Assembly: GCA_026418415.1 (NCBI GenBank)
Contig: JAOABK010000019.1
Location: forward strand, 1-35,109
Direction: 5' to 3'
Length of the DNA: 35,109 bases
Origin: Pseudomonadota bacterium
GTDB lineage: Bacteria > CALINM01
This document shows positions 4,912 to 25,922 of the stretch, one piece after another. Within the stretch, counting starts at the first letter, position 1; each line of letters opens with the position of its first letter. Position numbers and translations under genes: made by a program. Below the pieces are notes generated by a model. That model saw only the letters and a program-made list of their open reading frames with translations. It searched no databases and was not told where the DNA came from.

Positions 4912-6399
4912 CTAATCTATTTTTGATATCCTATCAATTAAACTTTTATTTGCTTCTTCAAGCTCTTTATTGACTCTCACTAATTCATCAGCAGTAATAC
5001 ATAAGTTTTTGTATAGCCAGTTGTTTTTAAAGGCAACAGAGATTAATTTGCATATATCTTGCATTGTATCGAAATCAACATCTTCAATAGAAGAAAGATT
5101 AATGAAGAGTAAAAAACCGAGTGGGAAATTTTTCATATAGATCGGGAAGGACAAAAAATTCTTTATATTAAAATTATCAATAAACTTAGTTATCGCATTA
5201 AATAAAGCCCTTGATGATCTGTGATCCTGTGAGGAACTAAGTAGTTTACCCAACAATTCATGAAACACAAATTTTTCCTTAAAATTTAAACCACTCTTTG
5301 CTTCAAGAAGAAAATTTTCCTTATTTTCATCAATGACATATAAAGCACAACCTTCAGCATTTAAATATTTACTTACTGAAGATAGAATTTTATTAAGAAT
5401 ATCGCCAGTATCAACAATATCAACAATCAATGAAGAAATTTCCTTGTAAATATTTACTCTTCTCAGGCTGGCTTCTAAAAAAGAAATCATATAAGAGGAT
5501 TCAAGAGCAAAAGATATTTGAGCAATAAAAGATTTAAACAAAATAAAATCTTCTTCATTATAAGGCTTAGGTATCTTTCTATCGCTTACACTAACAACTG
5601 CAACCACCTCGTTATTTAGAACCACTGGTCCACACATGAAAGATGAACTCTTATATTGATCCTTAAAGGGTGAGGAATTAAATCTTTCATCTTTTGATAT
5701 ATCAGGAACATAGATTGGCTCTTTAGTATTAGCAACATAACCAACTATACCCTCTCCAATACTTCTTGGTTTAAAAAGCTTTATATCCATACAATAACCA
5801 GCACAGGCAACTACATAATATTTTTTCTTTTCTCTATCAAGCCAGCTCAAAGACACTTTTTCTGCATCAAAGGCTATTACGATAGAATCAAGAATTGATT
5901 GTATAAGCATACTACCAGGATAATTTAGAGGAATCTCTGGCAGAGACTTTCTTGATGCTTTAAGCAAAGTCTCAGTTCCCTTAGCAATTTTGTGAATCTT
6001 TGAAAGTCTTTCAATTTCTTCATTTTTATATAAAGTGAACTCTATTGCCTTTTTTACTGAGAGGATAAGTTCTTCTTTAATAATTGGTTTCTCAATACAA
6101 TCAAAAACACCAGCTCTTATATAACGGACAACTAATTCTTTTCTCTCTGAGCTAACAATTGAAATAATTGGCAAGGTGGGATAGGTTTTTTTTATTGTTC
6201 CAAGCAATATTAAATCCCCGTCTCCTAATTCAGAAACATCACATATAACCACATGGGGCTCATATTTTTCTATGAACTTAGTAAGTTCACCTGGTTTACT
6301 AGCTTTTATAACCTGGTACTTTTCTGCATGTAGAATATCCTCAATTAAGGTGCTATAAAAAATCTCTTTATCATAAATCAAAATCTTTCCCTGGCCCAT
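4912..6399 (-). CDS. Response-regulator receiver protein with two GAF domains, no recognised output domain
   Basis: A 495-residue cytoplasmic protein. The N-terminal receiver domain (about 4-120) has the predicted phospho-acceptor D54 in VVICDVSELGDGD and the conserved lysine K104 in EKP. The first acidic pocket reads YDKE, so the usual second Asp is K11. A first GAF domain spans about 150-300, a second about 320-465, and a short coiled coil closes the protein. No HTH, GGDEF, EAL, kinase or ATPase motif is visible, so it probably signals through protein contacts. It sits 7 bases after hslU and 10 before argB, and no kinase gene is nearby. What the GAF domains sense is unknown. Confidence 0.8.
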   Translation of the reverse strand: MGQGKILIYDKEIFYSTLIEDILHAEKYQVIKASKPGELTKFIEKYEPHVVICDVSELGDGDLILLGTIKKTYPTLPIISIVSSERKELVVRYIRAGVFDCIEKPIIKEELILSVKKAIEFTLYKNEEIERLSKIHKIAKGTETLLKASRKSLPEIPLNYPGSMLIQSILDSIVIAFDAEKVSLSWLDREKKKYYVVACAGYCMDIKLFKPRSIGEGIVGYVANTKEPIYVPDISKDERFNSSPFKDQYKSSSFMCGPVVLNNEVVAVVSVSDRKIPKPYNEEDFILFKSFIAQISFALESSYMISFLEASLRRVNIYKEISSLIVDIVDTGDILNKILSSVSKYLNAEGCALYVIDENKENFLLEAKSGLNFKEKFVFHELLGKLLSSSQDHRSSRALFNAITKFIDNFNIKNFLSFPIYMKNFPLGFLLFINLSSIEDVDFDTMQDICKLISVAFKNNWLYKNLCITADELVRVNKELEEANKSLIDRISKID

Positions 6400-18329: not shown

Positions 18330-19970
18330 ATGAAAAAGTTTTTTATTTTAATTAGTAGTCTTATCATTATATCTCTTATCACATTGGCCTGCTTTAGTAT
18401 TTATCAAATTCAAAATCAAAATAGATTCCTAAATACCCAACAGAGCCTTCAACTGTTAAAGGACAAAACTGCCAGTTTTATTATAAAAATTGATCAAAAC
18501 ACAGATGAAGTTATAAGCGCAATTAAACAGAAAGATCACTCTTTATCAAAAAGAGCAATGCTCAACATTTATAACGAGATAAGCACTTATAAAAACGCTG
18601 TTAAAATAGATTATATGGTAAAAGGTTGTATCTACTGTCACGGTGAGAAGGATCCAAATATAATTAATTTAAAAAATAGTTTTACGAATTTAACAGACCT
18701 ATCACTAATCCTTCATAACGAATTGAGTATATATTTATCAAATCCAGAAAATTTAGTAAAAGTTTTACACTACAAATCGGAATTAAGAAATAAGCATGCA
18801 GAATTACAAGAGTTATTACAAACAATGCATGCCCATATAAATGAGGAGATTTTTAACCAAAATGATTTTTTTAACAAGTTAGGACTTGTTATCACAATTA
18901 TTACAATTTTAATTATATTTTTCTTGGTATTAATTTTTTATAAGAAAATCATAAAAGACATAGATGGTTTAATTAAATTATCAGAAACTTTATTTGATCA
19001 AAAAAAGCCTCTGGAAATCAATTTAGACATCTTTAAGAATAAAGAAATTAAAGAGTTTGTCCAACTACTTAGCAAAGCCATGCATAGTCTCTATGAAAAG
19101 GAAAAACAATTACAAGAGCAAATGGAAGAAATTTCAAGCATGAATGATGAACTACAAGCATCAAATCAACAAATGGAAATGCTAACCTTTGAATTAGAAG
19201 AAGCGAGAGAAAACTTAGAAAATATAGTTAAAGAAAAAACTAAGGAATTACAAAGGGCATACAAAGAACTTCAAGAATTAGATACCCTAAAGAGTAACTT
19301 CCTACACAGCATATCTCATGAATTTAAAACACCACTAACTCCATTATTTGGATATTTAAAACTTTTTAAAAATAAAGATTTAGGGGAGTTAACCCCCCTT
19401 CAGGAACAAAGCATAGATATAATGCTTGCATGCGCAGAAAAGCTTTACAATACAATTGAGGATATTATCTTATTGGCAAGATTAGATGTGGAGAAGGAAA
19501 AATACATCTTGAAGGAAGTTGATTTAGCATATCTCCTAAAGAGTACTCTAAATAGAATAGAAAAAGAACTTTTAGAGAAAAAAATTACTCTCATACAAGA
19601 CATTCCAAATATATCTATCGTTATAATTGGTGAACAATTGATGTTAATTCAAACTTTTCTCCATACCTTAAGAAACTCAATAAAATTCACTCCTGAGAGG
19701 GGCACTATTAGAGTAGTATTAAGTCAGGAAGAAAAAAATGCTGTGGTAAGAATAATCGATACAGGTACTGGATTACCTGAAAAAACGGTTAATGAAATTA
19801 ATGAATACTTAGCCTCGCAAAGTATTTATACAAATAAGCGAGGCGATGCAATAACAATTGGATTAAACCTTATGAAACGTGTTATAATAATTCACAATGC
19901 TTCAGTTCGTTATAAAAGTGAGAAAGGAATTGGCACTGAAGTAATATTTACTTTCCCTTTAAAGGGTTAA
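18330..19970 (+). CDS. Sensor histidine kinase with periplasmic c-type heme motif
   Basis: A 546-residue inner-membrane kinase. TM1 is about 4-25, a periplasmic domain about 26-183, and TM2 about 185-204. The periplasmic part contains [11 protein letters not shown], a CxxCH heme c attachment motif at 100-104. A HAMP-like linker (about 205-257) and a long coiled coil (258-318) follow. The HisKA phospho-site is H330 in [12 protein letters not shown]. In the ATPase domain the N-box asparagine is N449 in RNSIKFTP, and the G1 box is DTGTGLP at 477-483. Heme binding suggests redox, oxygen or NO sensing, which is an inference. No response regulator is adjacent, and cysE begins one base later. No ribosome site is visible before the ATG. 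Confidence 0.88.
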
Positions 19971-19971
19971 A

Positions 19972-20667
19972 ATGGGCTGGATAAAGAATATAAAAAAAGA
20001 AATTGAATGCATTTTCGAAAGAGACCCCGCTGCAAGAAGTGTATTAGAAGTTCTTATATGTTATCCAGGATTCCATGCAATCTTATTCCATAGACTTTCA
20101 AACTTTTTATGGAGAAAAAATTTAAAACTTTTAGCAAGGTTTATATCTCATATAGCAAGGTTCTTAACTGGGATTGAGATACATCCTGGGGCTAAAATAG
20201 GAAAGAGGTTTTTCATAGACCACGGCATGGGGGTTGTTATAGGTGAAACTGCAGAAGTTGGTGATGACGTAACAATATATCATGGCGTCACCTTAGGTGG
20301 TACCTCGTGGAAAAAGGGCAAAAGACATCCTACAATTGGTAACAATGTAGTAATTGGTGCTGGAGCAAAAATTTTAGGACCTATAACTATTGGTAATAAC
20401 TGCCTTATTGGTGCAGGATCTGTTGTTGTGAAGGATGTACCCGATAACTCAACCGTTGTTGGTGTCCCTGGTAGGATAGTTTATAGAGGTGGTGAGCAGG
20501 TTAAGATCGATGAGAAACTACCTGATCCAGAAGCCCAAGTTCTACAATGCCTCATGGAACAATTAAGGGATATAGAAAAGAAACTAAAGGAATTAACAAA
20601 AGAACATATAGAATTTACTTCCTGTTCACTTGAAAATTTAGGACATAAGGATGAGAAAGGGAGATAA
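19972..20667 (+). CDS. cysE: Serine O-acetyltransferase
   Basis: Transfers acetyl from acetyl-CoA to serine, the first committed step of cysteine synthesis. It has 231 residues. A short helical N-domain precedes the left-handed beta-helix hexapeptide repeats. The active-site residues are D83 and H84 ([12 protein letters not shown]) and H104 (IYHGVTLGG), and the KKGKRHP loop is also present. The C-terminus is a charged tail ending EKGR and lacks the terminal Ile that docks into CysK in the E. coli-type enzyme. That suggests no classical cysteine synthase complex (inference). It lies one base after the heme kinase, so the two genes share a transcript. Confidence 0.95.
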
Positions 20668-24404: not shown

Positions 24405-25922
24405 TTAGAAAGCATAGTTAAATTTAACGAGTGCTCTGTAAAGGCTGTCTGGATGTCTTACAATGTAGTTCATCATGTTGTAATAATCTCCAAGGTCTGC
24501 CCAAGCAAGAACACCAGTAATGCTCATGTTTTTATCAACCATGTATTTAAGCTGAGCATTGATCTCTGTACCCATATGCATTCCTGCATTGTATCTTGAG
24601 GTATTTGTAAGTGCCAATGCTGCGTTTCCATCTACACGGTTGTCATTTGCCTGCATATAACCTGCACCAATCTGTAGGCTCATCTTATCGGTGAGTTTGT
24701 GGTTATAATCAGCATAGATTAGGAATACACCACGACCATTATTGTTTACATCTGGAAGAAGTGCAGTCGAATGAGTTATATCTTCAGATGTACGGATGAG
24801 TATGAAAAGGTCCGTACAAAGGAGTGGTAAATCAGATCCGATTGAATACTGATTACCCGTAATCATACCATTGTAATCTTCTTTGTTTTTATCACCACCG
24901 GATACATAAAGTACGCGACCACGAAGTGTTCCAGCACCAAGGGCAACATCAGCCATTGCATGGAGTGCATAAGACTGAATATCCATTTTCTTGATTCTTG
25001 GTAGTGGAGTTGCGATTGTTGCACCTGTTAATGGATTTAGATGGGGTAAATTTGCTCCATTAATTTCACCCCAGTTATACACGCCATATAGTGTGTAAGC
25101 AACATTTCCGCTCTTTCCAGAGAAGTTCACACCAGCATAATAAATTCTTGCACGCTGGTAATCAAAGCCCATTCTTGTTTTGTGTACTGGTGAAACTGCT
25201 GGAATAGCTGCAAAAAATGGATGAGCTTCAGAAGAGACAGATGTTCTATTTGAAGAAAGGCTAAGTGTTGTTGATGTATTATCAAGATTTTCTGCTGCTC
25301 TACCACTATCATCAAAAAGTCCATAAAGTGATAAACTAAGAGTGTTATTGCCCATCTTCTGCTTTAATGTAACAGGGATAAAATAAACACCATCGTTAAC
25401 CTTTACATCTCTGTCAGAGAAGAGGAACCAACCTGCCATTAAGCTGGTATCTTTTGAAAGGTTCCAGTCTCCGCGAATACCAGCCATATCAGCACCACCA
25501 AAAATAATACCCATATACTCATCGGTGAACCCCTGGACTCCAAGTGTGTATCTTGAGTTTACTGTAGGTTTAAACCATAAAAAGAGGTTTTTGGTCTCAA
25601 TGTTAATTGTATCTGCTGATAATGCTCCACCCCTATTTCTTGCCACTGCAAAAGCTACATCACCCCATCTAAAATCGATTTCTGTTGCGTAGGTACCACC
25701 TAAATTTTCACCAGTTTTAAAATTGAAAAAAATACGAGCTCTTTGATCTACGAAGGCTCTTGTCTGTGAATCGTCTGAAAGCTGAATACTTCCATAACCA
25801 TAGTTGTTAATTTCTGGATAGACCCTGATAAAACCAGTAAAATTAACCGTTGTCTGAGCAAAAGAAAGACCACACATCATAAGAACTGCAAACAATGTAA
25901 CCAAAAACTTACTTCTTTTCAT
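24405..25922 (-). CDS. Outer-membrane porin-like beta-barrel protein
   Basis: A 505-residue exported protein. The signal peptide MKRSKFLVTLFAVLMMCGLS runs to a predicted cut after FA, before QTTVNF. The mature part is rich in alternating polar/aromatic strands, for example NLFLWFKPTVNSRYTLGVQG and GNVAYTLYGVYNWG, and ends with the aromatic residue F (KFNYAF), as expected for barrel insertion by BAM. I do not recognise the substrate, and the protein could serve as a general diffusion channel. It has a consensus promoter, a long leader and an AGGAGGG ribosome site, suggesting high expression. It stands alone, with a terminator on its 3' side. Confidence 0.85.
   Translation of the reverse strand: MKRSKFLVTLFAVLMMCGLSFAQTTVNFTGFIRVYPEINNYGYGSIQLSDDSQTRAFVDQRARIFFNFKTGENLGGTYATEIDFRWGDVAFAVARNRGGALSADTINIETKNLFLWFKPTVNSRYTLGVQGFTDEYMGIIFGGADMAGIRGDWNLSKDTSLMAGWFLFSDRDVKVNDGVYFIPVTLKQKMGNNTLSLSLYGLFDDSGRAAENLDNTSTTLSLSSNRTSVSSEAHPFFAAIPAVSPVHKTRMGFDYQRARIYYAGVNFSGKSGNVAYTLYGVYNWGEINGANLPHLNPLTGATIATPLPRIKKMDIQSYALHAMADVALGAGTLRGRVLYVSGGDKNKEDYNGMITGNQYSIGSDLPLLCTDLFILIRTSEDITHSTALLPDVNNNGRGVFLIYADYNHKLTDKMSLQIGAGYMQANDNRVDGNAALALTNTSRYNAGMHMGTEINAQLKYMVDKNMSITGVLAWADLGDYYNMMNYIVRHPDSLYRALVKFNYAF

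Follow-up and report, generated by a model that had tools for sequence, protein, structure and literature searches.

Few haem c sensors are known from two-component systems, and the described ones are mostly PAS-like or Cache domains. In the accessible parts of the literature, the periplasmic haem c sensors have been classed as PAS-like and are now gathered as sCache_heme (PMC12889525, PMC8396549, PMC3831638). sCache_heme domains are reported to have the Cache alpha/beta fold with the CxxCH motif inserted between beta3 and beta4, and about half of them are described as parts of fusions with kinases, chemoreceptors or cyclic-nucleotide enzymes (PMC12889525). For GSU0582 and GSU0935 a ligand switch is given as the working model, at which an axial methionine is bound when the haem is reduced and released on oxidation (PMC8396549), and the sCache_heme protein of P. 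azotoformans offers a precedent for NO sensing (PMC12889525). Here, we have identified a sensor histidine kinase that, like GSU0582, GSU0935, Tll0287 and the HAMP protein of P. azotoformans, carries a CxxCH in a predicted periplasmic sensor, yet this sensor has no PF11845 match and no strands in its model.

The window, by which we mean the whole stretch of 35,109 nucleotides that was analysed (contig JAOABK010000019.1, from a Pseudomonadota bacterium), carries an ORF with an ATG start for this kinase of 546 aa (18330..19970, +). Pfam recognizes, both above the curated cut-off, a HisKA dimerisation/phosphoacceptor domain at residues 321-386 (19290..19487, +; 3.6e-13 for the family), bearing the SHEFKTP motif with H330, and a HATPase_c catalytic domain at residues 436-545 (19635..19964, +; 1.4e-15). 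Hydropathy windows centred near residues 10 and 189 point to two membrane-like segments: TM1, at residues ~5-27 (18342..18410, +), is a helix in the model as well, and TM2, at residues ~184-206 (18879..18947, +), is modelled as continuous with the last helix of the sensor. They bracket an outer domain of ~156 aa (residues 28-183; 18411..18878, +), in line with the size of about 155 residues estimated in the sequence-only reading. The basic MKK and YKK ends would be compatible with an N-in, sensor-out topology. Past TM2 lies what may be a degenerate HAMP-like linker (residues ~207-256; 18948..19097, +) and then a long coiled coil up to ~residue 318. The linker helices, 209-223 and 238 onward, were taken from a poor full-length AlphaFold2 model (mean pLDDT 59) that served as source for these limits only, and HAMP gave no Pfam match in the whole protein or in the sensor alone. 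Hence, the ORF, the motif, the HisKA and HATPase_c domains and the hydropathy all agree with the initial description of a histidine kinase with a CxxCH between two membrane segments.

The sensor was modelled with AlphaFold2 from the two orthologues (residues 1-215) as a monomer without haem, with a mean pLDDT of 83.4 and a pTM of 0.68. The model is composed of helices only (2-66, 70-92, 98-104, 109-137 and 139-214), of which the bundle helices are helix 1 (28-66), helix 2 (70-92), helix 3 (109-137) and helix 4 (139-183), the first and the last extending into the membrane segments. Confidence is low in the loop ahead of the motif, where residues 93-95 have a pLDDT below 50 and the block 91-100 averages 55. 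By VIA-align the model matched Tsr, PcaY_PP, Adeh_2942 and NarQ at Z 12-15 with a sequence identity of 4-12%, and the alignment to NarQ spanned ~190 residues with both TMs included. We therefore predict an up-down four-helix bundle of the Tsr/NarQ kind, with helix 4 running unbroken into TM2. Since a designed bundle scores alike (Z 14.1) and the Foldseek E-values are weak (best 0.025), the name of the fold rests on its topology; what we claim for the modelled sensor is a fold and not a common descent with Tsr or NarQ.

The profile search proposed in the sequence-only reading was run on the sensor alone of both orthologues (E up to 10), in addition to the whole protein (E up to 1), and returned for the sensor no Pfam match above the curated cut-off. 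The Pfam four-helix sensor profiles, namely 4HB_MCP_1, TarH and PilJ, gave no match either, although such profiles can miss divergent members. Similarly, no PDB sequence of note was matched at E up to 10, the best hit (0.34) being an unrelated protein. The idea of a short DUF3365/Tll0287-type sensor (sCache_heme, PF11845) was rejected, as its profile found no match in either orthologue at these thresholds, in a test that included no family member as positive control, and as the model is an all-helical four-helix bundle instead of a Cache fold. The interpretation made at first sight is therefore supported in part: the haem c motif stands, and the comparison with a shorter DUF3365/Tll0287-type sensor has to be changed.

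The motif itself, CIYCH, occupies residues 100-104 (18627..18641, +) in the loop that links helix 2 to helix 3, on the side that the topology would place in the periplasm. No other CxxCH occurs in the 28 ORFs examined in the window, which total 10,970 aa and for which 0.011 would be expected by chance; the corresponding expectation for the kinase sensor is ~0.00015. The outer domain has no cysteines besides C100 and C103, and the protein has just two more, C21 within TM1 and C368 in the kinase part. It had been anticipated that a haem c assignment would be refuted by a motif lost from orthologues or by a genome without c-type cytochrome maturation genes. The closest relative is a kinase orthologue in a genome of the same genus (G001, contig CALINM010000226.1), with an identity of 82% over the full length and 73% (114/156) in the sensor; no other orthologue has a sensor that can be read, and the motif in this one is CTSCH, so that both cysteines and the histidine are kept and the intervening residues differ (IY against TS). 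In a second genome, from another genus of the same family (G002), the kinase half shares 54% identity and the contig ends within the gene, the rest of which, sensor included, was not found elsewhere in that assembly; hence the conservation of the motif rests on a single orthologue.

The two cysteines and the histidine are kept in this pair of orthologues although synonymous sites are near saturation (dS ~1.5); dN/dS is 0.11 over the whole sensor and 0.07 within residues 86-118. Residues 91-118, which include the motif loop, form the best-conserved stretch of 28 residues in the sensor (25/28 identical). As for maturation, the genome of the window encodes the System II machinery for haem c (ResB-CcsA), with ResB, CcsA and a multihaem cytochrome with many CxxCH in one cluster (C139, ~67424-71053), and each of the three family genomes examined has CcsA-type genes (PF01578). 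A periplasmic CxxCH in a cell with such a system normally receives haem. The assignment is refuted on neither count, and covalent haem c, which is likely, is the best reading of CIYCH, because the motif is periplasmic by topology, is kept in the orthologue of the genus and is accompanied by maturation genes.

If the sensor is an up-down bundle whose first helix rises from the membrane, the loop joining helices 2 and 3, which holds the CxxCH, is its membrane-near loop. On pairing helix 3 with helix 4, residue 109 would lie level with ~167, which would bring the CxxCH loop to about the height of M166-H167-x-H169 on helix 4 (18825..18836, +). This block, our candidate for axial ligation, is invariant in both orthologues and comes directly after residues 151-165, which are only 40% identical between them. 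Besides H104, the periplasmic histidines are 70, 129, 147, 156, 167 and 169; half of these six are conserved (147, 167 and 169), and two of the conserved three, 167 and 169, are on helix 4 across from the haem loop. Among the periplasmic methionines, M96 and M166 are kept in the orthologue and M77 is not. By helical phase, M166 points toward the core, H167 is ~60 degrees off, and H169 and H147 both point away from the core, H169 by ~100 degrees and H147 to the outside; for this reason M166 or H167 would be the most likely distal ligand, with M96 and H169 as alternatives.

We propose, with a probability of roughly 60%, that the kinase is governed by a haem c four-helix-bundle sensor in which TM2 is moved by helix 4 as its axial ligation to the haem changes with redox state or with a gas. 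CcsBA (ResB-CcsA) would attach the haem just above the membrane, through the loop cysteines C100 and C103, and H104 would serve as its proximal ligand, the distal site being held in one state by a helix-4 residue at the same height. Redox partners in the periplasm, or the quinone pool, would then oxidize or reduce the haem and so change the ligation, and a small gas, for instance NO, may be an alternative trigger by binding to the haem. Such a change would pull or free helix 4, unbroken into TM2, from which the signal could travel onward via the HAMP-like linker and the coiled coil to the kinase. What has been observed is the gene, its motif, the retention of the motif in one orthologue and the maturation genes; the four-helix fold is modelled, and we infer that haem is attached, along with the distal ligand, the signal and the way it is passed on. 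We favour redox over NO sensing because several conserved candidate ligands may lie at about the height of the haem, even though the sequence alone cannot tell which of the two it is.

Among the other explanations, the likeliest, which we still regard as unlikely, is that the protein is a sensor of NO or CO whose distal site is open or occupied by water, with no redox ligand switch and with the helix-4 residues shaping the pocket. In P. azotoformans, the sCache_heme protein linked to HAMP is reported to bind NO tightly and to form no stable O2 complex (PMC12889525), and the sensor described here likewise ends in TM2 followed by a kinase. However, the P. azotoformans protein differs in fold, which makes the analogy functional only, and the invariant M96, M166, H167 and H169 at about haem height would rather suggest six-coordination.

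A still less probable explanation dispenses with haem: C100 and C103 might act as a thiol-disulfide switch, or might join H104 and H167 or H169 in binding a metal, so that the redox state of the site is sensed. CxxC alone can act as a redox switch, and two more conserved histidines are found at a similar height; against this, the histidine right after the second cysteine is retained, and in a genome with System II maturation and a multihaem cytochrome a periplasmic CxxCH would normally be haem-loaded. Finally, it is quite improbable that this is an ordinary four-helix sensor for a small anion or an amino acid, in which the CxxCH is a lineage-specific feature, incidental or structural. Its fold is indeed that of the ligand-binding Tar, Tsr and NarQ and its sequence is found in one genus only, but the motif is hardly expected by chance in such a sensor and its loop is the most conserved part of it.

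The confinement to one genus comes from several searches. A profile search at E up to 0.05 in 386 genomes across the domain found no convincing relative of the sensor outside the genus: 15 genomes matched, of which the window's own (G000) and G001 were convincing, the other 13 giving E values of 4.7e-4 or weaker, mostly over short stretches. With the single sequence at E up to 0.1, 25 of 290 genomes of relatives, a set that overlaps with the former, were matched and again only these two convincingly. Two scans of genome contigs, and scans of plasmids and of viral contigs, yielded no convincing sensor relative, and the searches aimed at other phyla covered 2 and 3 genomes, a scope that does not imply absence from large phyla. 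Moreover, four-helix sensors diverge fast, therefore failure to find relatives does not prove their absence. One match (L053) was rejected as a sensor relative; we take it to be a PhoU-like protein.

In addition, 27 loci were scanned for frames with a CxxCH, and three of them (L005, L009 and L027) were inspected. Across the 37 H-box frames of all loci collected, duplicates included, a CxxCH upstream occurred only in copies of the window kinase and in L027. The latter (1453-2976, +, genome G026) encodes a HisKA kinase with HAMP, adjoined by a response regulator gene, whose sensor holds CSGCH and CANAACH (CX4CH) and matches no Pfam family, PF11845 included. Its CxxCH is similarly placed, but it was rejected as a relative of our sensor given an identity of 22%, an E value of 0.0986 and the second motif, and its genome gave no match to the two-row sensor profile at E 0.1. 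It is possibly another undescribed haem c sensor.

The output of the kinase was approached through its neighbours. One base past its stop lies cysE, for a serine O-acetyltransferase (19972..20667, +), and this order is kept in G001 and G002, the two genes being adjacent in each of the three family genomes examined. A role of the kinase in cysteine metabolism was considered, with gene order as its sole support. The lack of an adjacent regulator was confirmed, as a single protein with a receiver domain turned up in the window, ~12 kb away. This protein of 495 aa (4912-6399, -) has a receiver domain followed by GAF domains; the Pfam search of the window covered 18 of the 28 ORFs, and the whole-genome PF00072 search lists no other on the window's contig (C72). 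The search for orphan response regulators that had been suggested produced 54 receiver-domain matches (PF00072) in G000, and 45 in G001, but no pointer to a partner. A promoter scan showed no excess of sites over shuffles (11 against a mean of 13.1). Elsewhere in the window, a protein of 505 residues with a signal-like start (24405-25922, -) has no Pfam match at E 0.01, and we take its sequence, by impression, to be porin-like.

Two other kinds of haem protein may be set beside the modelled sensor. Cytochrome c' also joins four helices to a CxxCH, with its motif near the end of the last helix. In contrast, the CxxCH of the window kinase lies between helices 2 and 3 and there is no PF01322 match, and cytochrome c' was rejected on these two grounds. 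MsmS (MA4561), which is placed in the cytoplasm, resembles the kinase proposed here as a c-type haem kinase, yet it is not a periplasmic four-helix bundle. This Methanosarcina acetivorans sensor kinase is listed among those with c-type haem and described as PHY-like (PMC8396549), so kinases can have c-type haem outside Cache as well. The accessible portions of PMC13401364, PMC6956133 and PMC4822843 name no four-helix bundle that binds haem covalently, and no haem c four-helix sensor kinase was found among titles and the beginnings of abstracts, mainly of open papers. G. sulfurreducens is reported to have twelve signal transducers with CX2-4CH (PMC8396549). We do not claim a first report, since the literature covered is mainly open and the folds of these twelve Geobacter transducers are unchecked.

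The closest parallel in architecture is to Tar/Tsr, PcaY_PP, NarQ and Adeh_2942, which have the same up-down four-helix bundle as the modelled sensor; in Tar/Tsr and NarQ, helix 4 continues into TM2 as it does in our model. Adeh_2942 is described as having no known ligand (PMC3831638). Tar/Tsr, PcaY_PP and NarQ bind small ligands, and the literature covered names no covalent haem for these or for Adeh_2942, whereas the modelled sensor carries a haem c motif. Perhaps, and this we hold only tentatively, it represents a separate class of haem c sensor, at which a CxxCH loop has been placed in a ligand-binding four-helix bundle and a ligand on helix 4 staples the haem to the signalling helix close to the membrane, the sensor thereby reading the redox state of the periplasm or of the quinone pool. 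If this is true, haem c sensing would have been invented independently beside sCache_heme. It would also join the best-studied fold of transmembrane signalling to a switch that can be read by spectroscopy, and ligand-driven motion of helix 4 would become directly measurable.
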